Source: Aliiglaciecola sp. LCG003
GTDB lineage: Bacteria > Pseudomonadota > Gammaproteobacteria > Enterobacterales > Alteromonadaceae
Direction of reading: 5' to 3'
Assembly (NCBI RefSeq): GCF_030316135.1
Contig: NZ_CP128185.1
Coordinates: 3,596,001 to 3,660,000, forward strand
Length of the DNA: 64,000 nucleotides
Shown here piece after piece: positions 3,031 to 14,841 of the stretch; position 1 is the stretch's first letter; each line of letters begins with the position of its first letter. The notes beneath the pieces were generated by a model. The model was not told the origin of the DNA. It worked only from the letters and a program-made list of their open reading frames with translations, and did not search any database. Position numbers and translations under genes: made by a program.

Positions 3031-3627
3031 ATGAGCGAATTTAAAACCATTCCCACCATTGCATTAGGCTTGTCCAAAACATTCTGCATCGACAGACAGG
3101 ACGCCAATACGGAGACATTAACCCTGCATAGCCCTGCACTCTTTGTTATGACAGACTTTTCCAGACCCAACCCCAATATTCTGGATGACGACTCCACGAT
3201 TGATGAGGCCTTGCATGTTATGCAAAAAAGTCACGTTAAATCTAAGTTAGTGGTGGACAAGAAAATGAATATTTTGGGCATTATTAATATGGCAGATTTA
3301 CTCAGCCGAAAAGTGCTTAAAACTGCCAACGAACGTGGTGTCACACGTGGCGATATGACAGTTAAAGAGGTGATGGTGCCGGTTAGCGAACTGCACGGCG
3401 TTAGCTATGAAAAAATTGCCAAAAGCAGCATTGGAGATGCACTGGCAACCATGCGTCAACTTGGCGAGCTGCACCTACTGGTCTTTGATATTGAGCAAAA
3501 TCTACGGGGCGTGATTTCTGCAATCGATATCAGTCATGGATTAAATATAGCTATGGATGTTGGCCCCATCGCTCATAACTTTAAAGACGTTTTTAATGTG
3601 ATCCATAACCATAGAGAATTGAGCTAG
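3031..3627 (+). CDS. CBS-domain protein
   Basis: This 198-residue soluble protein has no signal peptide or membrane segment. After an N-terminal part of ~45 residues there is a CBS pair: the first repeat covers about residues 45-95 (DDSTIDEALHVMQKSHVKSK, then ILGIINMADLL) and the second about 110-175 (SSIGDALATMRQLGELHLLV, then LRGVISAIDIS). CBS pairs commonly bind adenosyl nucleotides and control a partner. Here there is no fused effector domain, so the partner is unknown. The gene stands alone between two intergenic regions and converges on a TonB receptor gene, with a long palindrome between them. Confidence 0.8.
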   Translation: MSEFKTIPTIALGLSKTFCIDRQDANTETLTLHSPALFVMTDFSRPNPNILDDDSTIDEALHVMQKSHVKSKLVVDKKMNILGIINMADLLSRKVLKTANERGVTRGDMTVKEVMVPVSELHGVSYEKIAKSSIGDALATMRQLGELHLLVFDIEQNLRGVISAIDISHGLNIAMDVGPIAHNFKDVFNVIHNHRELS

Positions 3628-3762: not shown

Positions 3763-6471
3763 TTAGAAATCCCAACTCAGGCTGGCACTAAATGACGTAC
3801 CTACGGTTTCGTTTAGTAATTGCAGGCCTTCTTGGGTGATCTCTTTTTCTTCACCAAGTATATTCTGGATCTTAAACTTAACCGTGGTATTAAAATCCGG
3901 ATAATAGGTATAGACCAAGTCCAAAGAATGAAATGGCTGCTCTTGTGCATCTTCGTTACCACTTACTCCTGGGACAATAATTCGTTCACCGAAAGAGTTA
4001 TATACTAAAGATGCCGAATGCTCACCGTCCAACGAATCCCAGCCCAACTGCATGTTAACAACCCACTCAGAATGGCCGACTAAACGTCGCACATCGTTGG
4101 TGATTGGCGTAGTCACAGAGGATGCGTTCAATGCATCACGAAGCTGAATATTGTACAAAGAATTGTCGTCATCACGACCGATCTTCACTTCAGAGTCTGA
4201 CAAAGTAATGTTACCTGACATAAAGAAGTTAGATAAATCGCTGGATATGAAGGTCAAATCCTGCAAAAATTCAAATTCAACACCATATAGCTCGCCGGTT
4301 TCAGCATTGGCCGTTAGCAGCTGTGGTACACCTTCACCACCACTTAATTCAATCATTTCGATAGGATTAGCCATATCTTTGTAGAACAAAGCTACCGATA
4401 AGTTGTTGCCCGTTGGTTTGTACCATTCCCACCTTAGATCCAAATTGTCTAATTCGGCCTGTTGCAACAAAGGCGAACCACGGACCAAGAACTCGGTTAA
4501 AGGATCGATAAAGAAGCTGGCGCTAATATCACGTAAGTCAGGGCGGATGACGGTTTGGCTGACATTTACCCGGAACTGCATTTCTTCATCCATGATGTAA
4601 GTTAATGCTAAAGAAGGAAACAAATCATCTTCGTTATAAACCGACTCGAGAATTTCTTCCCGCTCAATGGCAAAAATATCACTATGTGGCCGATACGGAA
4701 TGGACACCTGTTGGAATCTTTCCCATCTCACACCACCAGATACGCGGAACGAATTGGAGATAAAGGCATCAGCCATAAAGTAATACGCTTCAAGCTTACT
4801 GGCGGCGGAGTATTTATCGCCGTTGCCAGTATTGTCTTGAAACAAACCACGGCCAGTTGAGCTCAAATAAAAATCAGAGTTGGCGATGTTTTCGGGAGTG
4901 AAGATCTGATCTAAACGTTGACCCTGTTTGAAGGTATCATTTATGCCAAAATGACGAATACCGATATCAATATTTTCCGCATCACGGGTTTTTTCATAGT
5001 AGTCACTACCGAATTTCAACTCAACTTCATAACCATCACCGAAAATAGGGACTGCCGCATTGAATCCCCAAGTATCAGAGGTATCTTGCAAGGTCTGATA
5101 TTGCCGAACCAAGTTAGTTGCAGCGAGATCCTGGAGACCTTCAAATTGAACTTCACCGGCTTGATTGAAGTTTTTCTCAAAAGTCACTTCCAGAATATCA
5201 GGTGCATCACGAGATGCACGACTAGTACCCGCATACCAATCAAAATAAGAATTCCACCAATTAGGTAAATTGTGAGTCCCCTTGAGCTGACTTGAAACCA
5301 TTTCACGTTCTTCGAAGATAATGTCTAAGCGACTGAGCTCAGTCACCCCTTCTTCTGACTCGTTAGCATCGAAATAATCACGGTAACGCACTCGATCTCG
5401 CATATCGTGCAAGATCATATTTACCAACTCAATTTTGTTGTTCGAGTCGTATTCATAACCGACATTGAACATGCCACTCCAGCGCACGCTTTGCTCAGTA
5501 GAGGGGCCATTTAATGCCTTGGTAAAACAGCGAGCGCCACTGTTGTCACAGCCTCCGCCAATATCAGAGCCGTTTTTTTCATTGGTAACGGCCCATTCGT
5601 TACTATAAGAGACAGTAGCAAGGAAGCCCAAAACGCTGCCGTTGTCTAAGTCATAGACATTCCCTAGAGTCGCCCCAACGTTGAAATCAGGATCAATACT
5701 TTTAGGATCAGGGCCGATATCCCAGTTTAATGAAGACAATAGCGCTTGGGTGTCAGCCAATGTGGTGGACGAAGAGCCCTCTATCCCAGCCGAACCTGAT
5801 GCTGCTAATGCATTTGCAAAGGCATCGGGAAGTGCCCGCGTGCCGTCATCGCGACCGGTCCAGTCATCACCACCACCAGCGTAAAAATAGCCATCGTTGC
5901 TGTCTTCAGTGTTGTAGCCTAAACCACCACTCACACTAAATACAAAATCCGTGGGTATTGATTTTGTCCGAATGTTGACGTTTCCACCACCAAAATGCCC
6001 AGGCATATTGGGCGAGAAGGATTTTTGCACATTCAGACTTTCAATAATGTCTGATGGGAATAAATCCAACGGCACCACTGAGCGGGTCGGATCAGGGCTG
6101 GGAACCGTCATACCGTTTAACTGAGTACTCGAATAACGCTCACCCAAACCACGCACATAAATGAACTTACCATCTACCAAAGTCAGACCGGTAACTCGAC
6201 GAAGCGCAGAGGCTGCATCACCGTCACCGGTACGAGAAATTTGTTCTGCACCCAAAATATCAGCTACGAAAGCCTGATTTTGGCGTTCTTGTAATACCGC
6301 AGATGCCGTACCTTTTAAACGGGTTCCCGTTGCAACGACCTCTTCAATTGCAGCGTCTTCTTCGCTACTTTGGGCCAACACGTCTGAAGCCAAAGTGCCG
6401 CAACAAAGCACAGACACAACTGCCAAACTTACGCGGCTTCTTCTGAGCATTGAGTCTAATTTAGTTTTCAT
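3763..6471 (-). CDS. TonB-dependent outer-membrane receptor
   Basis: The 902-residue product has a signal peptide cleaved at about residue 33 (DVLAQ), a TonB-box-like segment (IEEVVATGTR), a plug domain (IYVRGLGERYSSTQLNG; FGGGNVNIRTKS) and a long beta-barrel ending in an aromatic residue (SLSWDF), as expected for an outer-membrane protein. It would import a ligand with energy from TonB-ExbBD. The gene lies immediately downstream of the three-module lipoprotein gene, separated by a terminator-like hairpin at 6513-6546. The start is supported by AGGAA about 9 bases upstream. Context with phoBR and a pstS-like gene suggests a phosphorus-containing ligand; this is inference, since sequence alone does not reveal the substrate. 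Confidence 0.9.
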   Translation of the reverse strand: MKTKLDSMLRRSRVSLAVVSVLCCGTLASDVLAQSSEEDAAIEEVVATGTRLKGTASAVLQERQNQAFVADILGAEQISRTGDGDAASALRRVTGLTLVDGKFIYVRGLGERYSSTQLNGMTVPSPDPTRSVVPLDLFPSDIIESLNVQKSFSPNMPGHFGGGNVNIRTKSIPTDFVFSVSGGLGYNTEDSNDGYFYAGGGDDWTGRDDGTRALPDAFANALAASGSAGIEGSSSTTLADTQALLSSLNWDIGPDPKSIDPDFNVGATLGNVYDLDNGSVLGFLATVSYSNEWAVTNEKNGSDIGGGCDNSGARCFTKALNGPSTEQSVRWSGMFNVGYEYDSNNKIELVNMILHDMRDRVRYRDYFDANESEEGVTELSRLDIIFEEREMVSSQLKGTHNLPNWWNSYFDWYAGTSRASRDAPDILEVTFEKNFNQAGEVQFEGLQDLAATNLVRQYQTLQDTSDTWGFNAAVPIFGDGYEVELKFGSDYYEKTRDAENIDIGIRHFGINDTFKQGQRLDQIFTPENIANSDFYLSSTGRGLFQDNTGNGDKYSAASKLEAYYFMADAFISNSFRVSGGVRWERFQQVSIPYRPHSDIFAIEREEILESVYNEDDLFPSLALTYIMDEEMQFRVNVSQTVIRPDLRDISASFFIDPLTEFLVRGSPLLQQAELDNLDLRWEWYKPTGNNLSVALFYKDMANPIEMIELSGGEGVPQLLTANAETGELYGVEFEFLQDLTFISSDLSNFFMSGNITLSDSEVKIGRDDDNSLYNIQLRDALNASSVTTPITNDVRRLVGHSEWVVNMQLGWDSLDGEHSASLVYNSFGERIIVPGVSGNEDAQEQPFHSLDLVYTYYPDFNTTVKFKIQNILGEEKEITQEGLQLLNETVGTSFSASLSWDF

Positions 6472-6512
6472 TTACTGACATTCCTATAAAGCTGGAAAAG
6501 ATTCTTAACATG

Positions 6513-6546
6513 AAAAAGCTAAGACGATTATTCGTCTTAGCTTTTT
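6513..6546. terminator. Hairpin between lipoprotein and TonB receptor genes
   Basis: AAAAAGCTAAGACG at 6513-6526 pairs perfectly with its complement at 6533-6546 around the loop ATTATT, giving a classic intrinsic terminator shape with T-runs on both strands. On the minus strand it ends the lipoprotein transcript only ~40 bases before the receptor start, which leaves little room for a separate promoter. It could therefore reduce, rather than abolish, receptor expression. Confidence 0.75.
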
Positions 6547-6561
6547 TTAAAACATTCAGAA

Positions 6562-9500
6562 TCAATCTTCTAAACCAACTGTTACCCACCCTAGTGTCCA
6601 ATCTACTTGACCATCAAATGCACCAATGTAGTCGGTGCTATCAAAGAAGTTATCAAGGGATGAACTATCAAAGCCATTTCCTAATAAACCTGACCCTGCG
6701 GCTGGGGTGAAACCGTTAGCATCAAGGCCTAACATATCAGCAGTGCTCACTGTATTCCCCGTTTGACCGTTGAACCAGGCGTTAGTGTCTCCGTCACCAA
6801 TAGTGTCTGAACCAAAGTTTTGGGTGGCATCACAAGCGACGGTTGAGTGAGTTATACTTAACTCACCAGCCACTGCGTTGGCTATGGCTTCAGCACCGTT
6901 AACCCGCAAGCAGTTTGAATAATCTGATGATGTACTATACACCAATAGATTCTTAATCACGCCCGCTGTACCGTTACGCAATCTCACACCATTAGTACCC
7001 GCTGCGCCAATAATTGTCACATTGGATACTGTTGGTTTAGTCAGAATAATCCAGTCTGGATTATCTTCATTATTGTCAGCTTCGATTGCATTATCACCAC
7101 CAGCAACATCTTGCTTAACCAAAACATACTGTGCTTTACCTGTCCAACCGAACGACCAATCCATAGAGTCATCACCGATTGAGGTAAGCACCAGGTGACT
7201 AACATTTACTGTACCACCGAAGAACTCAACACCGTCATCGAGGTTTTCATGTACATGGATATAATCAACGTCTGTTCCAGAGCCCACACCCGCTAGACTA
7301 ATACCATTTAGTTCATCACCGGCTGCCAATGCCTTACCAGCATGCTTAACTACCACATATTTTAGCGTACCAGAATTATCTTCTGGGTTGTTGCCGCCGT
7401 ATTGGCCCGCATCACCTTCAGCTGGCACACCACAATTGGTGAGCTCAGTTTCAGAGGTTTGGGTGTCATCGCCGGTGTTACACAGGTTAGTCGGTGCATT
7501 ACCCAATACAACTAGTCCGCCCCACTGACCGATTGAGGTTTCCTGACCTGAAAGATCTTGAACAGAAGTCATAGTAATTGGCAATGTAGCCGTGCCTGCA
7601 GCTTCAATTTTCGAGCCGCGACGTACTACTAAGAAGTCATTACCATCTTCACCGAAAATAGTCGTTCCGCGCTGTACGTACAAGGTTGCGCTATTGGCGT
7701 TATCTTCACCCACTGCAGTTCGGCCTTTAATTAACCAATGGGCATCATTGGTTAAGGTTACATCAGCAGTAAATGTTGTATTAGTCGCCAATTGATAAAC
7801 TGGCTTGTCAGTAATTTCAGGGAAACTAGCTGACACATCAGTTGCTAAACTCTGCTCGAAGGCGTTTTGCACATTTGCAGGGAATTCTTCATTCACTGCA
7901 ACTGTCCAACCTTCCATCCAGTTATTTTCACCGTCAAAAGCTCCGATATAATCGGTTTTGACGAAGAATGGATTGTCGCCAGATAAGTCAACGCCGCTAC
8001 CAAGCAAAGGTGAACTTGATTTTGGTGTAAAACCATCGGTAGAAAGAAGCAGTGCTGATGATGCGACGACTGAGTTACCAGTTTGACCTTCGAACCAGGC
8101 TTGAGTATCGCCAGCACCAATAGTGTCACTGCCAAAATCACCGGTTTCAGAACAAGCTACTACAGAATTTTGCACGCTTAGCTCGCCCGATACTGCATTA
8201 GCGATAGCTTCAGCACCATTAACTCGTACACAGTTTTTATAGCTATCTGGGCCAGTTACCACCAAGTTTCTTATAACACCAGCCGTACCATTACGCAGGC
8301 GCACACCATTGGTTCCGTCAGCCCCAACGATAGTCACGTTGGCAACTGTTGGTTTGGTTAATGGTGTCCAATCAGGATTATCTTCGTTGTTATCCGCCTC
8401 AATGGCGTTATCTCCGCCCGCAGCACTTTGCTGAATATAAACATTCTGCGCATTACCGGTCCAACCAAATGACCAATCGAGTGAATCATCACCGATATCC
8501 GTCAAGACCACATTACGCACACTTACCGTTCCACCGAAGAATTCAATTCCATCATCTAGATTTTGATGAACTTGGATAAATTCAACCTTAGTACCTGAAC
8601 CGATACCAGCAAAACTAATCCCGTTAAGTTCATCACCAGCAGCCAGTGCTTTACCCGCATGCTTCACTACTAGGTATTTTAATGTACCTGAATTATCTTC
8701 TGGGTTGTTACCGCCATATTGGCCCGCATCACCTTCAGCCGGTACACCACAACTAGCCAGCTCAGCGTCTGATGTTGCAGTGTCATCGCCGGTATTACAC
8801 AGGTTAGTAGGGGCATTACCTAACATAACCACACCACCCCACTGGCCAATGCTGGTTTCCTGACCCAATACATCTTGGATAGACGTCATTGTGATTGGAG
8901 CGCTGGCAGTACCAACCGCTTCAATTTTAGAGCCGCGGCGCACCACTAAGAAGTCGTTACCATCTTCACCGATGATGGTAGTCCCTTGTTCAATATATAG
9001 CGTTGCGTTGGCCGCATTGTCATTACCCACTGCGGTGCGACCTTTAATGATCCAGTGGGCATTATTTGTCAAAGTCACGTCAGAAACAAATGTCTGACCA
9101 TCAGCAAGTTTGTAAACTGGCTTATCATCAAGCTCAGGATAGCTTGTCGATACATCAGTGGCTAAACCCTGCTCGAAAGCGTTTTGAATATCAGTTGGGA
9201 AACCGCCATTGATGGCCACTGTCCAGCCGTCTAACCAGTTGGCTTCCGTTGGGTCAAATGCACCTACCACTTCATCACCCATAACTAGAGGAGATGAGGC
9301 GGTTGGGAAATATCCGTTGGCTTCAAGTAACAACTCGCCAGTAGTTAAGGTTTGATTGCCAGTTTGACCTTCGAACCAAGCTTGGGTGTCGCCATCACCG
9401 ATAGTATCACTACCAAAGTTATTGGCAGGTGAAGTACAAGCGACAACAGAGTTGGTTAAGGTTAATTCCCCTGACACTGCATTAGCGATAGCTTCAGCGC

Positions 9501-10638
9501 CATTTACTCGTAGGCAGTTTTCATAAGTCGCTGGACCGGTTACCAAGATATTAGACAATACACCAGCTGTACCATTGCGCAGACGCACACCATTGGTGCC
9601 ATCAGCACCGACAATAGTCACGTTAGACACTGTAGGTTTGGTTAATGGCGACCAATCAGGATTATCTTCGTTATTATCAGCTTCGATTGCGTTATCACCA
9701 CCCGCAGCACTTTGTTGGATATAAATTTTAGTTGCACTACCGGTCCAACCAAAAGACCAATCAAGAGAGTCATCACCGATGTCAGTCAATACGATGTGAC
9801 TGACGCTTACGGTTCCACCGAAAAATTCGATACCGTCATCAAGGTTTTGGTGAACTTGGATATGATCGACAACAGTACCTGAGCCAATACCAGCAAATGA
9901 AATACCATTTAGCTCATCCCCAGAGGCCAAGGCCTTACCTGCATGTTTAACCACGATATATTGTAAGGTTCCTGAATTGTCTTCTGGGTCATTACCGCCA
10001 TATTGACCGGCATCACCTTCAGCAGGTACACCGCAACTGGCAAGCTCATCGGCAGATGTTTCGGTATCATCACCGGTGTTACACAAGTTGGTCGGTGCAT
10101 TACCGAGCAATACCAAACCACCCCATTGACCGATAGTGGTTTCCGCACCTTCTAAATCCTGCTGCGAGGTCATTGTTATAGGTTGAGCTGCGGTCCCTTT
10201 AGCATCAATTTGTGAACCTCTGCGAACCACTAAGTAATCATCACCGGTTTCACCGAAAATAGTGGTTCCTGCTTGGACATGAAGAATGGCGCTATCAGCG
10301 TTGTCGTTACCCACGGCAACACGGCCATTTAACACCCAGTGAGCATCATTGGTGATTTTCACTTCACTAGTGATGGATGAAAGACGGTAAATAGGCTTGT
10401 CGGTTATGCTTGGAAAGTCGCTAGATGCATCTACCGCATATCCAGCTTCCACTGCACTTTGCACACTTGGCAAATAAACATCTGTGGTCGGTGGTGGTGG
10501 AGGCGTTACAGGAGGTGGAGGTGGGTTGGTTATACTGTTATCTACATCACCTTCATTAATATTAATGTCACCGCCACAACCGGCGAGAACTAAAGCCGCC
10601 GCAATAGCGCTAGCTCTAAAGATGTTTTTAAGTTCCAT
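6562..10638 (-). CDS. Outer-membrane lipoprotein with three tandem ~430-residue modules
   Basis: The 1358-residue product has a lipoprotein signal peptide (VLAGC, lipidated Cys21), a Pro-rich linker (about residues 38-52) and three tandem homologous modules at about residues 58-482, 483-921 and 922-1358. Each module repeats the same blocks: AHW..(K/N)GR.AVG, FLVVRRGS, IGQWGG, NAPTNLCNTGDDT, CGVPAEGDAGQYGG, HAGKAL, NLDDG.EFFGGTV, GDDS(L/M)DWSFGWTG and GVRLRNGTAG. The short repeating strands suggest a right-handed beta-helix, but I have not modelled it. Proteins with these blocks occur beside TonB receptors, as here, and are often only hypothetical. A GGAGA ribosome-binding site precedes the ATG, and a PhoB-box-like site lies ~100 bases upstream. 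Likely role: surface ligand-binding partner of the downstream receptor (inference). Confidence 0.85.
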   Translation of the reverse strand: MELKNIFRASAIAAALVLAGCGGDININEGDVDNSITNPPPPPVTPPPPPTTDVYLPSVQSAVEAGYAVDASSDFPSITDKPIYRLSSITSEVKITNDAHWVLNGRVAVGNDNADSAILHVQAGTTIFGETGDDYLVVRRGSQIDAKGTAAQPITMTSQQDLEGAETTIGQWGGLVLLGNAPTNLCNTGDDTETSADELASCGVPAEGDAGQYGGNDPEDNSGTLQYIVVKHAGKALASGDELNGISFAGIGSGTVVDHIQVHQNLDDGIEFFGGTVSVSHIVLTDIGDDSLDWSFGWTGSATKIYIQQSAAGGDNAIEADNNEDNPDWSPLTKPTVSNVTIVGADGTNGVRLRNGTAGVLSNILVTGPATYENCLRVNGAEAIANAVSGELTLTNSVVACTSPANNFGSDTIGDGDTQAWFEGQTGNQTLTTGELLLEANGYFPTASSPLVMGDEVVGAFDPTEANWLDGWTVAINGGFPTDIQNAFEQGLATDVSTSYPELDDKPVYKLADGQTFVSDVTLTNNAHWIIKGRTAVGNDNAANATLYIEQGTTIIGEDGNDFLVVRRGSKIEAVGTASAPITMTSIQDVLGQETSIGQWGGVVMLGNAPTNLCNTGDDTATSDAELASCGVPAEGDAGQYGGNNPEDNSGTLKYLVVKHAGKALAAGDELNGISFAGIGSGTKVEFIQVHQNLDDGIEFFGGTVSVRNVVLTDIGDDSLDWSFGWTGNAQNVYIQQSAAGGDNAIEADNNEDNPDWTPLTKPTVANVTIVGADGTNGVRLRNGTAGVIRNLVVTGPDSYKNCVRVNGAEAIANAVSGELSVQNSVVACSETGDFGSDTIGAGDTQAWFEGQTGNSVVASSALLLSTDGFTPKSSSPLLGSGVDLSGDNPFFVKTDYIGAFDGENNWMEGWTVAVNEEFPANVQNAFEQSLATDVSASFPEITDKPVYQLATNTTFTADVTLTNDAHWLIKGRTAVGEDNANSATLYVQRGTTIFGEDGNDFLVVRRGSKIEAAGTATLPITMTSVQDLSGQETSIGQWGGLVVLGNAPTNLCNTGDDTQTSETELTNCGVPAEGDAGQYGGNNPEDNSGTLKYVVVKHAGKALAAGDELNGISLAGVGSGTDVDYIHVHENLDDGVEFFGGTVNVSHLVLTSIGDDSMDWSFGWTGKAQYVLVKQDVAGGDNAIEADNNEDNPDWIILTKPTVSNVTIIGAAGTNGVRLRNGTAGVIKNLLVYSTSSDYSNCLRVNGAEAIANAVAGELSITHSTVACDATQNFGSDTIGDGDTNAWFNGQTGNTVSTADMLGLDANGFTPAAGSGLLGNGFDSSSLDNFFDSTDYIGAFDGQVDWTLGWVTVGLED
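6565..7875 (-). repeat. Module 3 of the lipoprotein gene
   Basis: This is the third tandem repeat, about 437 residues, starting at NVQNAFEQSLATDVSASFP and running to the C-terminus of the protein. Confidence 0.8.
7876..9192 (-). repeat. Module 2 of the lipoprotein gene
   Basis: This is the second tandem repeat, about 439 residues, starting at DIQNAFEQGLATDVSTSYP. By eye its N-terminal part is closer to module 3 than to module 1, as with FEQ(G/S)LATDVS and FLVVRRGSKIEA. Confidence 0.8.
9193..10467 (-). repeat. Module 1 of the lipoprotein gene
   Basis: This is the first of three tandem in-frame repeats, about 425 residues, starting near SVQSAVEAGYAVDASSDFP. It is the most divergent at its start but shares the NLCNTGDDT, CGVPAEGDAGQYGG and FFGGTV blocks with the other two. 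Confidence 0.8.
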
Positions 10639-10735
10639 TGATGCTCTCCAAATGCGAGTTTTGTGTGCTCCAGGTTTTTGGTAGGTAAGACCTGGTAGCT
10701 AAAATTATGAACCGCGAGAAGAGTATCCAACATCA

Positions 10736-10753
10736 GTGACAGTTTTGTTACAT
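10736..10753 (-). promoter_or_regulatory. Candidate PhoB box upstream of the lipoprotein gene
   Basis: On the minus strand this reads ATGTAAC AAAA CTGTCAC. It has the 7+4+7 layout of the enterobacterial Pho box (CTGTCAT-N4-CTGTCAC), with the second half matching fully. About 8-10 bases further on is GATACT/TACTCT, a possible -10, which is the spacing seen at PhoB-activated promoters where the box replaces the -35. The site was found by eye. Confidence 0.6.
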
Positions 10754-10870
10754 TGCAGTTCTGTAACAAAAGTTTCATAAAAACAGTAAAAGCTTGACCG
10801 CACTAGCTAGATTACATATATCATGACTGCAATCAGCCATCACAGATATTTGCAACGGCAAGCAGATTAA

Positions 10871-11692
10871 TTATTGGTAACTATCTTCTCTAAACCATTT
10901 AGTGATAACTACTTTTTCACCCTGGGTAATCGGATGAGCATGATGCATAGTATCGGGATTAGGTGTTCCATCAGGATACAAATTATTCCAAACCAAGGCG
11001 GTGCCTGTCCTCGGTTTGAATGACCGGCCGATATTAACGAATTCTGTTTCCCCTCCTTCACATTCACCATTTAGATAAATCATGAATGTCCAAGTACGTT
11101 GTCCACCATCTTTTGAATAGGTTTTAAAATCCTCAGAGCCAGGTACAAAATAATCATAATGAGCTTTAAATTGCTGCCCTACGGCATAATGTTGGGCCTG
11201 AATCACCTCTCGTTCACCGACGCCTAGGCCCAAGGCATCAACGATCTTTTTGTCTATCTCAAAGGCCAAGGGATCTTTGGTGAAGGGTAAATCACAGGTG
11301 GAGGAAGTCCGAAATCCCTGATAAATCTGTTCTGCGCGTTTTGGAATCTCGGAGGGACGCATCTTAGATTTGGTTAACGCAATAAGGGCGTCACACTCCT
11401 GCTTATTGAGAAAGTTATCGATTTTAATCATCTGTAAGCGATCATCATCAATCACTTCAGCCTGATAACTTTCTAATTGAGTCAATAGTTTCGGCTTCGA
11501 TACCCGCGCAAAAAAAGCCTCATCTTTGTTGCATTGGATCCCCTCAGGTAAATTTCCACCCAACGCCTTTTTTGAGGCTTCAAAGGTAAAGCCATTTTGT
11601 AACAGTATTTTGAGTATTTCTACCCCATCGCTCCCTTGCAGTAGACTTTGTAACACCCATTGCTTCCAATTTTGCGGTAAACTCGCCATCAA
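10871..11692 (-). CDS. 2-oxoglutarate/Fe(II)-dependent oxygenase, prolyl 4-hydroxylase type
   Basis: The 273-residue cytosolic protein carries the 2OG-Fe(II) dioxygenase signature in its second half. H178 and D180 (AHYDYF) and distal H250 (MHHAHPI) are the probable iron ligands, and K260 (TQGEK) is the probable 2-oxoglutarate contact. WTFMIYLN and GGETEF match the P4H catalytic core. The N-terminal ~90 residues are not recognised. These enzymes hydroxylate proteins or small molecules; the substrate here is unknown. The gene starts 16 bases after the pstS-like gene and is the last gene of the phoB-phoR-pstS transcript. The start ATGATG follows an AGGA site; either ATG could be used. Confidence 0.85.
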   Translation of the reverse strand: MMASLPQNWKQWVLQSLLQGSDGVEILKILLQNGFTFEASKKALGGNLPEGIQCNKDEAFFARVSKPKLLTQLESYQAEVIDDDRLQMIKIDNFLNKQECDALIALTKSKMRPSEIPKRAEQIYQGFRTSSTCDLPFTKDPLAFEIDKKIVDALGLGVGEREVIQAQHYAVGQQFKAHYDYFVPGSEDFKTYSKDGGQRTWTFMIYLNGECEGGETEFVNIGRSFKPRTGTALVWNNLYPDGTPNPDTMHHAHPITQGEKVVITKWFREDSYQ

Positions 11693-11708
11693 TTATGTCC
11701 TGACAATT

Positions 11709-12713
11709 TTAATTTAGAAGGGCTTTCAATTGCCTTTGTATAGTTTCATTTGGCATACCTACATATCCTTCTTGCTGCACTATTTGCTGTCCTTTATCAG
11801 ACAACACAAAGCGTAAAAACTCCTGTTCAAGTAATGGTAAAGGATCTGTGGGATGTTTGTTAACCACTAAATATAAAAAACGGGTAAACGGATAGTCGCC
11901 ATTGGCAATTGTTTGGCTACTGGCAGGAATAAAGGCTCCGGTTTGATCCGCTATGGCTAGCGCTTTAACCGCGGTGGTTTTGTGTCCATAGGCGGCATAA
12001 CCAATAGCACCATTTGAAAAGGCGACAGATTGCACCACAGAGGCTGAACCCGGTAGTTCGTTGACGGTTGCCTTGAAATCACCGTCACATAACGCGATAT
12101 GCTTAAACAAACCGTAAGTACCGGATACTGAATTACGCCCAAAAATTTTGATCGGTTTACTACCATAAGACCCGCTAACACCAACATCATTCCAGATGTG
12201 AGCATGTTTGCTTGCACCACAAAATCGGGTAGCCGAAAAAATACTGTCAACCTGAACCTTAGTTAAACCCTCAAGTGGATTATTAGTATCGACAAATAAT
12301 GCAATCGCATCTATACCTACCTTAACCGCGTAAGGCTTATAGCCATGGCGACGGCTAAAATAACTTATCTCGCTGGTTTTCATTTCCCGACTCATCGGGC
12401 CTATGTTGGCCGTTCCCTCAGTCAGTGCAGGCGGGGCAGTTGATGAGCCTGATGCTTGAATTTGAAATTTAACCTGAGGATATAATCGTCTAAATTCCAC
12501 CGACCAACTGGTCATCAGATTAGCCAAGGTATCAGAACCCACTGACGTTATAGAGCCTGCTACACCCGGTTGTTTTTGGTAGCGACTGAAAATTTCTGTG
12601 CGATTTACAGAGCTATCATTGGGCCCTTCGAATGTCTGCGCACAGACTAAATTATCCAATGGGGAGACCAAAACTAGTGCACACAGCCAGCATTGAATTA
12701 ACCGAATGTTCAC
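11709..12713 (-). CDS. pstS: Phosphate-binding PstS-like periplasmic protein
   Basis: The 334-residue product has a signal peptide (cleavage near residue 25, VCAQ) and a substrate-binding fold. GSITSVGSDTLANLM and IQASGSSTAPPAL resemble the phosphate-contacting loops of PstS (the GSGSST-type segment), and GRNSVSGTY matches the later RxxGSGT-type loop. No pstC, pstA or pstB gene is nearby, so it either serves a transporter encoded elsewhere or acts as a sensor or scavenging protein with phoR. Its ATG overlaps the phoR stop by four bases (ATGA), which indicates translational coupling. The PstS family call is firm; exclusive specificity for phosphate is not proven by sequence. Confidence 0.85.
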   Translation of the reverse strand: MNIRLIQCWLCALVLVSPLDNLVCAQTFEGPNDSSVNRTEIFSRYQKQPGVAGSITSVGSDTLANLMTSWSVEFRRLYPQVKFQIQASGSSTAPPALTEGTANIGPMSREMKTSEISYFSRRHGYKPYAVKVGIDAIALFVDTNNPLEGLTKVQVDSIFSATRFCGASKHAHIWNDVGVSGSYGSKPIKIFGRNSVSGTYGLFKHIALCDGDFKATVNELPGSASVVQSVAFSNGAIGYAAYGHKTTAVKALAIADQTGAFIPASSQTIANGDYPFTRFLYLVVNKHPTDPLPLLEQEFLRFVLSDKGQQIVQQEGYVGMPNETIQRQLKALLN

Positions 12714-14038
12714 GGCATTTTTTCCGTTACTTTATGTTTATCCTCGGCGATGAGTTCACCAGAAAATGTAAAGGAAAACTCACTGCCTTGCCCGGCTTCA
12801 CTGCGAATTTCTAATTTCGAATTATGATGGGTAAGCACATGTTTAACGATAGATAGGCCCAAACCTGAGCCTCCAGTTTTACGCGAACGCGCCTTATCTA
12901 CACGATAAAATCGCTCGGTGAGCCGGTTAATATGTTTCTCTGCAATACCGTCTCCATTGTCAATAACGCTAAAGCGGGCTTGCCCGTCTTTGAACTCCCA
13001 ACAAACTTTAATCAATCCACCCGGTGGGGTGTAGTGAATGGCATTGAAAATCAGGTTTGAAAATGCACTGCGCAATTCAGTTTCGATGCCATATACCAGC
13101 AAGCTAGGATGAATGTCGAAACTAATCTGGTGATGTTTATCTTTGTTCAGCGTATTTGCCTCGACTTGAATAGCCCCTAACATTTGTGGCACATTGACGG
13201 GCTTTTCGAAAACCCGCTCTGAACTCGCTTCGATTCGCGACAACACTAATAACTCTTCAACTAGATTTTGCATTCGCTCTGACTGTGAGCGCATTTCCTT
13301 GAAGGCTTTTTTCAGAAAAGCGGGAGGAACATGTTCAACCGTTGGTAACATTTCCAGATAGCCATTTAATACGGTAAGCGGAGTACGTAATTCATGGGAT
13401 ACGTTGGCGACAAAATCTTTGCGCATTTGCTCAAGTTGAGTCAGGCGAGTGACGTCACGGGCGATGAGCAATAGATGTTTCTCACCATAGGGCATAACCC
13501 GGTACTCAAATATTTTTTGTACGTTTGAAGGAGATGGAACCTCAATGGGAAAGTCGTATTTACCGTTGTGGAAAAACTCAATAAATTTTGGATGGCGAAT
13601 AAGGTTATCAACCCGTCGACCAGAATCTTGTGGCCAGCGCAAGCCCAATTCTATTCTTGCCAATCGATTACACCACACGATACAGGCATTGGAATCAACC
13701 ACAACGGTGGCATCAGGCAGGGCTTCCGAACCTTCCCTAAAGCGTTTTACCAAACGGGTGAGTTCTTTACGCTTGCGACGATTGCGTCGCTGAATGTAAT
13801 ACACACCCTCGTATATATGCTCCCAAAAGCCTGCTGCTCTGGGTGGAGTCATCTTTTTACTGTGCCAGACCCAGCGATTAAAACGGTACAGATGCCAAGA
13901 ATAAAAGGCTAACAGCCAAGTCGAGCCGATTGCAATGCTGACTGCAAGGGCGTCGAAATACAAGCCCAAAACCACTACGCAAAGGTAAAAAGCAAGGACC
14001 CTAAAAAGACTTTTTAGCCATGAAAAAGGATAATACAT
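12710..14038 (-). CDS. phoR: Phosphate regulon sensor histidine kinase PhoR
   Basis: The 442-residue product has two N-terminal membrane segments (about residues 5-45), a PAS-like domain (DATVVVDSNACIVWCNRLA) and a histidine-kinase core: H-box DFVANVSHELRTPLTVLNGY, N-box NLIFNAIHY and G-boxes GDGIAEKHINRLTERFYR and GGSGLGLSIVKH. This is the PhoR order: short membrane anchor, charged linker, PAS, kinase. I placed the start at MYYPFSWL (14038) because an upstream start at 14119 would add 27 unconserved residues and overlap the phoB end. phoB ends 49 bases before this start and the pstS-like gene overlaps its stop, so the three form one operon. Confidence 0.93.
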   Translation of the reverse strand: MYYPFSWLKSLFRVLAFYLCVVVLGLYFDALAVSIAIGSTWLLAFYSWHLYRFNRWVWHSKKMTPPRAAGFWEHIYEGVYYIQRRNRRKRKELTRLVKRFREGSEALPDATVVVDSNACIVWCNRLARIELGLRWPQDSGRRVDNLIRHPKFIEFFHNGKYDFPIEVPSPSNVQKIFEYRVMPYGEKHLLLIARDVTRLTQLEQMRKDFVANVSHELRTPLTVLNGYLEMLPTVEHVPPAFLKKAFKEMRSQSERMQNLVEELLVLSRIEASSERVFEKPVNVPQMLGAIQVEANTLNKDKHHQISFDIHPSLLVYGIETELRSAFSNLIFNAIHYTPPGGLIKVCWEFKDGQARFSVIDNGDGIAEKHINRLTERFYRVDKARSRKTGGSGLGLSIVKHVLTHHNSKLEIRSEAGQGSEFSFTFSGELIAEDKHKVTEKMP

Positions 14039-14087
14039 GGCACTAGTTCGGCATAGTGAGTTGAAAGATGAACATTGTGCTGTTTTA

Positions 14088-14777
14088 TTACACCTTTGTA
14101 GAGAAACGATAGCCCGCACCGCGTACGGTTTGGATCATATCATCATGGCTAAATTTCGAGATCGCTTTTCTGAGACGACGAATATGCACATCCACAGTGC
14201 GATCTTCCACGTAAACATTGGTTCCCCAAACATTGTCTAACAGTTGCTCGCGACTGTACACACGTTCAACGTGTGTCATAAAAAAATGTAATAATTTGAA
14301 TTCTGTCGGCCCCATTTCTAAGGGTTCCTCATTTGCGCTGACCCTATGAGATACAGGATCTAGCACCAAACCATTAAATGAGATGGGTTCTTCAGCAGAG
14401 GTTGGAGTCACCCGTCGCATCACCGCTTTGATCCGAGCAACCAACTCTTTGGGTGAGAATGGCTTAGTAATGTAATCATCTGCGCCTGAGTCAAGACCCC
14501 GCACCTTATCTTCTTCCTCTCCCCGCGCCGTTAGCATTATGATCGGAATGTCTCGGGTAAATTCATGTTGTTTTAATTTTTTAGCCAATTGCACCCCGCT
14601 TCCACCGGGAAGCATCCAGTCCAAAAGAATTAAATCAGGATAAGGCTCTTTAACCATATCCAAAGCAACTTGGTAATCCTCAGCTTGCAGAGTCTCGAAA
14701 CCTGATTGCTCTAATACGAATTCGAGCATTTCTCTGATTGGCGCTTCGTCCTCAACCAGTAAAATTCTTCTAGGCAT
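14088..14777 (-). CDS. phoB: Phosphate regulon response regulator PhoB
   Basis: The 229-residue protein has a receiver domain (acidic D10; phospho-acceptor D53 in [10 protein letters not shown] in [10 protein letters not shown]) and an OmpR/PhoB-type winged-helix domain ([20 protein letters not shown]). Length and motifs fit PhoB. I chose the Met of [11 protein letters not shown] at 14777, preceded by AGGA with 8-base spacing, over an upstream ATG at 14795. The gene opens the phoB-phoR-pstS-2OG oxygenase operon. A PhoB-box-like site 47 bases upstream suggests autoregulation. Confidence 0.95.
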
Positions 14778-14823
14778 TGATTTATTCCTGCTCATTATAA
14801 AGGCGCCATTATTAGTTTGAGTT

Positions 14824-14841
14824 GTGACACTTTTATTAAAC
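14824..14841 (-). promoter_or_regulatory. Candidate PhoB box of the phoB operon
   Basis: On the minus strand this reads GTTTAAT AAAA GTGTCAC. The second half matches CTGTCAC in 6 of 7 positions and the first half matches more weakly. TAATAA follows after 9 bases as a good -10. This arrangement is expected for an autoregulated phoB promoter. Confidence 0.6.

Follow-up and report, generated by a model that had tools for sequence, protein, structure and literature searches.

The DNA considered here is a 64,000-nt stretch of Aliiglaciecola sp. LCG003 (assembly GCF_030316135.1, contig NZ_CP128185.1, positions 3,596,001-3,660,000, forward strand), referred to below as the window, from a genome that forms a single contig of 4.41 Mb. 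Its minus strand carries a run of six genes in which the phosphate regulators phoB and phoR are joined to a large lipoprotein and a TonB-dependent receptor, and it is this lipoprotein-receptor pair, its partners and its connection with phosphate that are the subject of this report. In the direction of transcription the genes are phoB (14088-14795), a response regulator matching the PhoB equivalog TIGR02154 at 367 bits against a cut-off of 296; phoR (12710-14119), a sensor kinase above the cut-offs of TIGR02966 and NF008235 that also matches PF11808; a pstS-like gene for a phosphate-binding protein (11709-12713; TIGR02136, 230 bits, cut-off 207); a 2-oxoglutarate (2OG)-Fe(II) oxygenase gene (10871-11692; PF13640); the gene of a 1358-residue lipoprotein (6562-10638), to which module alignments and an AlphaFold model assign three beta-helix modules; and the gene of the paired receptor (3763-6471; PF07715 and PF00593, with a model of the TonB-dependent transporter (TBDT) fold). 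Open reading frames and family profile matches place all six where an earlier note on this DNA had put them, gene starts being taken as the first listed start codons.

By these starts phoB and phoR overlap by 32 bp, and the real start of phoR may be internal, since the family profiles align with PhoR only from about residue 32. The overlap between phoR and pstS had been described as ATGA; the sequence reads GTGA, and pstS starts with GTG. PF12849 has one full-length match in this genome, the pstS-like protein (a second match is partial), and at about 3.44 Mb there are PstC and PstB matches above cut-off with a PstA-like frame between them; the pstS-like protein is therefore probably the binding protein of that distant Pst transporter. 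The oxygenase gene follows pstS after 16 bp and is an optional member of the locus, a relative being found among the neighbour clusters of 8 of 100 loci from the same bacterial family (the family loci, defined below). A gap of 232 bp separates it from the lipoprotein gene, which, given this gap and a Pho box of its own, is probably a separate transcription unit; the receptor gene follows the lipoprotein gene after 90 bp.

The translated lipoprotein begins with a signal ending in an LAGC lipobox, i.e. it has the lipoprotein signal of the ElpS-type pairs that are discussed below. The three-module architecture proposed earlier is borne out by module alignments, which delimit module 1 (9229-10506, approximately residues 45-470), module 2 (7924-9228, residues 471-905) and module 3 (6565-7923, residues 906-1358), all on the minus strand, with modules 1 and 3 both 71-74% identical to module 2. 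The lipoprotein matches no Pfam or NCBIfam family at cut-off, and the modules are also without a family in PHROGs and in PDB sequence searches; matches of the modules to beta-lactamase, DUF7210 and S-layer entries were below cut-off or barely significant and were taken as chance. Homology to SusD was likewise rejected, there being no SusD Pfam match and the beta-helix model being a different fold. SusD has an alpha-helical TPR fold. The SusCD/PusCD and BtuBG-type importers share with the window pair the logic of a surface lipoprotein working with a TBDT, but the predicted module is a beta-helix whereas the SusD fold is alpha-helical.

The structure prediction proposed in the earlier note as a check on the modules gave an AlphaFold2 model of module 2 (built from 60 sequences; pLDDT 94.1, pTM 0.93) in which the strand pattern is confidently predicted to be a parallel beta-helix. 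Foldseek found no close relative of the model in the PDB; the best matches are beta-helix enzymes, headed by the pectate lyase Pel9A (1ru4, E 2.4e-3, TM 0.36), and a search of virus structures with the module brought up two matches under 1e-3, which, where they are named, are generic beta-helices. In about 295 copies of the module N202, D225, D226, E229, D247, D248, D251 and D279 (module 2 numbering) are invariant, E165 and E277 are 99.7% conserved, and a His just before the DDG motif is conserved in 272 of 294 copies. By secondary-structure assignment several of these residues come after the long strands of consecutive rungs, and they would be expected to line up on the same face of the modelled module. 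In Pel9A, Ca2+ is bound via Asp209, Asp233 and Asp237 and Lys273 is the base (PMC10992409). The spacing of D225/D226, D247 and D251 is similar to that of the Pel9A Ca2+ aspartates, and no fully conserved basic residue comes after the acidic cluster, the only basic column there being an Arg present in 257 of 295 copies. This combination of a Pel9A-like spacing without a fully conserved basic residue may favour cation-dependent binding over lyase chemistry; the fold match to a PL9 pectate lyase is weak. Since the modules of tandem proteins keep the acidic cluster, one, two or three modules plausibly correspond to one, two or three predicted binding sites.

The same features could be read differently, with the lipoprotein as a surface enzyme of the pectate-lyase/polygalacturonase fold, or as the activator of one, that attacks phosphorylated polymers or glycans whose product the receptor imports; this is considered rather unlikely. 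The beta-helix model with Pel9A as its best PDB match agrees with such an enzyme, although that match is weak; the invariant Asp/Glu residues, the His before the DDG motif and the resemblance to the Pel9A Ca2+ aspartates (PMC10992409) agree as well, although no fully conserved counterpart of Pel9A Lys273 was found after the cluster, and multivalent binding would explain equally well or better why each tandem module keeps the cluster. Published work on related lipoproteins also points both ways. Overexpression of the Caulobacter lipoprotein ElpS raised phosphatase activity, but neither refolded nor immunoprecipitated ElpS had such activity (PMC2996285); the Flavobacterium lipoproteins FI, FII and FIII were modelled as polygalacturonase-like, with binding or hydrolysis of plant glycans suggested (PMC8115612).

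The connection of the pair with phosphate was followed through Pho boxes, scored at 18 positions against the E. coli consensus. The PhoB-box-like sites previously seen before phoB and the lipoprotein gene stand out against shuffled sequence: the lipoprotein gene is preceded by ATGTAACAAAACTGTCAC (10736-10753, minus strand), which scores 15/18 and is equalled by 1 of 500 shuffles, and phoB by GTTTAATAAAAGTGTCAC (14824-14841, minus strand), which scores 14/18 and is equalled by 10 of 500. The stretch upstream of the oxygenase has a weak box (13/18, equalled by 48 of 500 shuffles), and that of the receptor has none, its best score of 11/18 being equalled by 478 of 500. In the whole genome the exact pattern TGTMAYAWWWNTGTMAY has four matches, and the reversed control pattern has one. 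The four include the lipoprotein promoter and the promoter of an operon at 3.71 Mb that encodes DUF3450, ExbB and TonB proteins; the other two (L131, position 2918; L132, position 3568) have no clear phosphate gene nearby and may be chance.

Of 147 genomes sampled from the same family, 121 have a relative of the lipoprotein, and PhoR (PF11808) was found in 144. Distances were counted in 143 genomes (one weak match was omitted) with one lipoprotein match per genome; among the 121, PhoR lies within 20 kb of the lipoprotein in 47 and within 4 kb in 46, farther off on the same contig in 32 and on a different contig in 42. The 100 family loci that were analysed are made up of the 74 without linkage to phoR, taken completely, and 26 of the 47 with it, each fetched with up to ~6.5 kb of flank per side. 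A Pho box of at least 14/18 precedes the lipoprotein gene in 24 of the 26 linked and 53 of the 74 unlinked loci vs 8 of 228 cleaned control genes (compared by Fisher's test with relatedness ignored), and 20 of 1000 shuffled promoters reach that score. The cleaned controls omit genes labelled by the queries and genes whose upstream region overlaps the lipoprotein, phoB or DUF3450 promoters; in the uncleaned set, which still includes DUF3450 and phoB-divergent promoters, 65 of 348 score at least 14. Some high-scoring controls may themselves be genuine Pho genes, because among the five cleaned controls at 15 or more one is, by eye, polyphosphate kinase-like and two are possibly porins. Unlinked loci with a box of at least 14 are spread over many genera, at least one being found in 28 of 32 genera; in 23 of 32 they make up the majority of the unlinked loci of the genus. 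The earlier note had made its proposal depend on whether relatives of the pair are linked to pho genes or carry Pho boxes; in many genera they do, and PhoB-type regulation of the pair in the family is strongly supported by these promoter comparisons.

Beyond the family, a profile of 60 modules matched in 51 of 398 genomes sampled across the phylum, and a scan of named genomes found relatives in at least 535 of at least 592 pattern matches, of which the best 80 were retained as the wider loci. Among the matches listed are Alteromonas, Pseudoalteromonas, Shewanella, Idiomarina, Rheinheimera, Nitrosomonas and Kordiimonas as well as members of the Caulobacterales, Myxococcota, Acidobacteria and Planctomycetota, and 21 matching plasmid records add the Bacteroidota (Hymenobacter, Aureibacter, Parabacteroides, Bacteroides and Phocaeicola). 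Five of the Bacteroidota plasmid records hold homologues of 31-40% identity, three of which cover about half of the query. Neighbours on these plasmids include a DNA/RNA endonuclease and a porin in Hymenobacter, and the Aureibacter pair lies near a phosphatidylinositol-phospholipase-type gene; such neighbours might hint at phosphorus sources. The number of modules varies: among 169 lipoproteins one module is found in 65, two in 87 and three in 17. Of the 68 promoters scored in the wider loci, 37 have a box of at least 14, a count for which there is no matched control, and phoB or phoR matches lie beside or near the pair in four of these loci (L145, L192, L215 and L217). Two metagenome-assembled genomes show phosphate links that are independent of Pho boxes, the gene run being lipoprotein-PhoX-small open reading frame-PstS-two ABC permeases in a Nitrosomonas and lipoprotein-PhoR match-PstS-permease with the phosphate-transporter domain DUF3708 in a member of the Lysobacterales.

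That the lipoprotein and receptor form a pair, as had been proposed, is borne out by gene order and by co-divergence. In 98 of the 100 family loci the next gene downstream, in the same orientation, is that of the receptor, with a median gap of 86 bp; the exceptions are L047, at a contig end, and L100, and a looser earlier labelling had given 99 of 100. Of the 80 wider loci 8 are without a complete lipoprotein open reading frame, and a receptor match was found in 61 of the 72 others. The receptor model (pLDDT 84) has the canonical TBDT fold, with PhuR, PfeA and others as best PDB matches and a TM of 0.77 (by target) with FecA. Among 106 loci considered, 40 possess lipoprotein, receptor, phoB and phoR, and protein distances were compared in these: those of lipoprotein and receptor are correlated at r=0.88 (partial r 0.89, reached by 0 of 2000 permutations), whereas with phoB and phoR the lipoprotein reaches only 0.32 and 0.30, and the receptor 0.56 and 0.51.

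The pair also appears to have followed a history of its own. Between the window and Aliiglaciecola lipolytica the identities are 95-96% for phoB, 87% for phoR, 74% for pstS and 75-79% for the oxygenase, and only 41-42% for the lipoprotein and 49% for the receptor. Between the window and Alteromonas abrolhosensis/A. macleodii they are 84, 67, 62 and 46% for phoB, phoR, pstS and the oxygenase, and 75-76% for the lipoprotein and 70% for the receptor. The simplest reading of these identities is that lipoprotein and receptor were replaced together while the pho locus around them stayed in place; joint exchange is what is expected of a matched pair. A further sign of cassette exchange is seen in Alteromonas marina (L174), where a lipoprotein of 38% and a receptor of 47% identity to those of the window stand behind a phoBR that is as similar as that of A. 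abrolhosensis.

Between the two genes of the pair lies a perfect 15-bp inverted repeat with a 4-nt loop and a terminal T run (6513-6546, minus strand). In a survey of 91 lipoprotein-receptor gaps of 25-400 nt, the window included and G-U pairs allowed, stems of at least 9 occur in 61 gaps, with differing sequences, and in 57 of the 91 the stem is reached by at most 2 of 40 shuffles (p<=0.05). Such a hairpin may terminate a fraction of the transcripts, or it may shield the message upstream of it; either effect would leave more lipoprotein than receptor. Downstream of the receptor, on the opposite strand, there is a gene for a small CBS-domain protein (3031-3627).

The operon at 3.71 Mb (L133), with an exact TGTMAYAWWWNTGTMAY upstream, encodes DUF3450, two MotA/ExbB proteins and TonB, i.e. 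in one run the Ttp-type set of DUF3450 (TtpB), a long MotA_ExbB protein (TtpC), ExbB and TonB. Of the 100 family loci, 40 have DUF3450 immediately behind the pair and 4 have it elsewhere in the stretch; a score of at least 14 is reached by 35 of the 44 DUF3450 promoters concerned. On the A. macleodii plasmid pBGP9 the whole set forms a single run, which starts with rdgC and a histidine kinase gene (both on the opposite strand), phoB, phoR and a phosphate-binding protein gene and continues with the 2OG oxygenase, lipoprotein, TonB receptor, DUF3450, two ExbB-type proteins, ExbD, TonB and a TPR protein, with Pho-box scores of 15 before phoB, the lipoprotein and DUF3450. The A. macleodii BGP9 record with this whole phoBR locus (L319) is 239 kb long and is labelled a plasmid. 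Paralogous DUF3450 copies were compared in 10 hand-chosen genomes with two copies each, no listed copy being near the lipoprotein: one copy is boxed at 14-17 in all 10, and the other scores lower, 11-12 in 9 and 14 in one; the distance from box to start is 92-94 bp in 7 of the 10 and 66, 118 and 273 bp in the others. Two or more DUF3450 copies are present in 112 of the 121 genomes with the lipoprotein vs 8 of 26 without it, relatedness being ignored in this count.

The Vibrio TonB2 and TonB3 operons have the order ttpB-ttpC-exbB-exbD-tonB-ttpD; that of TonB3 begins with an outer-membrane receptor, is not iron-regulated and was said in 2023 to be of unknown function (PMC6957404, PMC10734418). 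The A. macleodii operon has the same kinds of genes in the same order, exbD and ttpD included, with the addition of the Pho-box match of 15 before its DUF3450 gene. The Vibrio systems differ in that the module family was found in 0 of 81 genomes of a family of the same order, guessed to be Vibrionaceae, and a receptor query found nothing beside 30 DUF3450 loci of that group, within flanks of 1.5 kb that are possibly too short. For these two reasons the link of the 3.71 Mb operon with TonB3 stays an analogy.

The earlier note knew of no described system with this combination of genes, a statement that does not hold in view of Caulobacter ElpS/Cc0171 and a phoBR-linked pair of Flavobacterium johnsoniae. 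ElpS (Cc0170) of Caulobacter crescentus, reported in 2010, is a surface lipoprotein made at phosphate starvation whose gene adjoins those of the TonB receptor Cc0171 and of a type II secretion system (T2SS); its authors suggested that ElpS and Cc0171 are functionally linked and pointed to homologues in Shewanella and Bacteroides (PMC2996285). The likeness to the window, a phosphate-starvation lipoprotein beside a TonB receptor, is one of gene order and description, and the order lipoprotein-TBDT-gspC is recovered in members of the module family. ElpS, at ~50 kDa, fits one module and stands beside T2SS genes, whereas the window has three modules, adjacency to phoBR-pstS and a TonB operon with a Pho box. 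In Caulobacter the T2SS and various TonB receptors were counted in the PhoB regulon in 2024 (PMC11208175), and no mechanism for ElpS was found in the open full-text literature.

The T2SS genes that follow the pair in some Alphaproteobacteria bring up another function for the receptor, namely display or release of the lipoprotein instead of import, as a TBDT does for the protease PopC in Myxococcus (PMC6434023); it is considered highly unlikely for the pair. Of 26 loci checked, 15 have a GspC match behind the receptor; two of these are one sequence and two supplied queries, these queries coming from a Pfam T2SSC match and some GspC identities being only 24-35%; a run of T2SS genes also follows the receptor in a Sphingomonas plasmid. 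Release of ElpS does need the T2SS, but ElpS reaches the surface without it and is still produced without cc0171 (PMC2996285), and the two annotated Alteromonadales loci, the family loci in which gsp was looked for, have a TonB energy operon and no gsp gene beside the pair.

The Flavobacterium system is closer in its regulatory context. The related-looking lipoprotein FII (Fjoh_0546) and the TBDT Fjoh_0545 of F. johnsoniae are encoded in the phoBR operon and are strongly induced by phosphate depletion; FI, FII and FIII are three strongly phosphate-responsive lipoproteins, 31-36% identical over 50-54% to the Caulobacter low-Pi (inorganic phosphate) lipoprotein, and the authors predicted organic phosphorus compounds as targets while also suggesting glycan binding or hydrolysis (PMC8115612). 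PUSIII and PUSIV consist of FI and FII with TBDTs, and this system resembles the window in joining phoBR, a lipoprotein (IPR011050) and a TBDT, with low-phosphate induction measured in Flavobacterium, and PUSIV TBDT Fjoh_0545 is listed with PF14905, which the window receptor matches too (PMC8115612). The PUSIV arrangement, with the pair in the same neighbourhood as phoBR, is that of the window and of the 46 of 121 genomes in which the lipoprotein is within 4 kb of PhoR. By description, the differences are that PUSIII and PUSIV belong to Bacteroidota and that tandem modules and a Pho-controlled TonB operon are not mentioned in the portions of PMC8115612 at hand. The available part of a P. tunicata paper has nothing on this locus (PMC2536512), and a search of the open full-text literature, which leaves out most subscription papers, brought up no account of tandem modules, of joint exchange of lipoprotein and receptor or of a TonB operon under Pho-box control.

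On the strength of the Pho boxes, the co-divergence of the pair, its apparent exchange as a unit and the boxed DUF3450/TonB operon, the pair is taken, with somewhat better than even confidence, to be a PhoB-controlled outer-membrane capture-and-import system for a phosphorus ligand that has a dedicated TonB motor. Upon phosphate starvation phosphorylated PhoB (PhoB-P) would activate phoB-phoR-pstS-oxygenase, the lipoprotein-receptor unit and the remote energy operon of DUF3450/TtpB, a TtpC-type ExbB, ExbB and TonB. We infer that the lipoprotein, on the outer surface, would display its one to three beta-helix modules, the Asp/Glu cluster of each probably binding a divalent cation and, through the cation, an anionic phosphorus-bearing ligand. 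The ligand would be handed to the co-evolving receptor and imported with power from the dedicated TonB complex, and phosphate released in the periplasm would be taken up via PstS and the Pst transporter; the hairpin after the lipoprotein gene would probably hold the amount of receptor below that of the lipoprotein. That the pair imports a phosphorus ligand is likely, though unproven.

A number of observations weigh against this interpretation. The box test leans on a consensus taken from E. coli. Beyond the class most boxes are weak, a score of 14 being reached in 8 of 26 loci that mostly come from there, two of these 8 being one sequence; among the best 80 of at least 535 relatives only 1 of 7 named Shewanella loci reaches 14, and in Pseudoalteromonas donghaensis the lipoprotein promoter scores 12 and the DUF3450 promoter 14. 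In Caulobacter, alkaline phosphatase activity outside the cells rose when ElpS was overexpressed, a result not expected of an uptake role, cc0171 is reported to be constitutive unlike elpS, its deletion left ElpS production intact, and an uptake defect of the deletion is not reported in the portions of the paper cited (PMC2996285). The Bacteroidota plasmid homologues have no annotated pho or pst genes nearby, in gene tables that are incomplete, so the module family need not be phosphate-specific everywhere. These last homologues, the lyase-like fold of the module and a receptor match to the TonB-Xanth-Caul family TIGR01782 that is below cut-off would also suit a pair that imports a nutrient unrelated to phosphorus, e.g. 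a glycan or metal complex, which simply happens to be of use when phosphate is low. Such a role is distinctly unlikely in view of the repeated linkage to phoBR, pst and PhoX and of the presence of Pho boxes before two operons that are not linked.

In parts of the ocean growth is limited by phosphorus, and the passage of bulky or scarce phosphorus compounds across the outer membrane of Gram-negative bacteria is poorly known. The findings assembled here connect the receptor, the lipoprotein that goes with it and an energy complex with a single signal. In a broader and more tentative form, to which slightly less than even confidence is given, many Pseudomonadota including Alteromonadaceae may possess a PhoB-controlled importer composed of a multivalent, cation-bridged array of beta-helix lipoprotein modules, a specificity-setting receptor exchanged with it as a cassette and a TonB3-like motor. 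The apparent cassette exchange at a fixed pho locus suggests that selection on the specificity of the receptor for its ligand has been changing.

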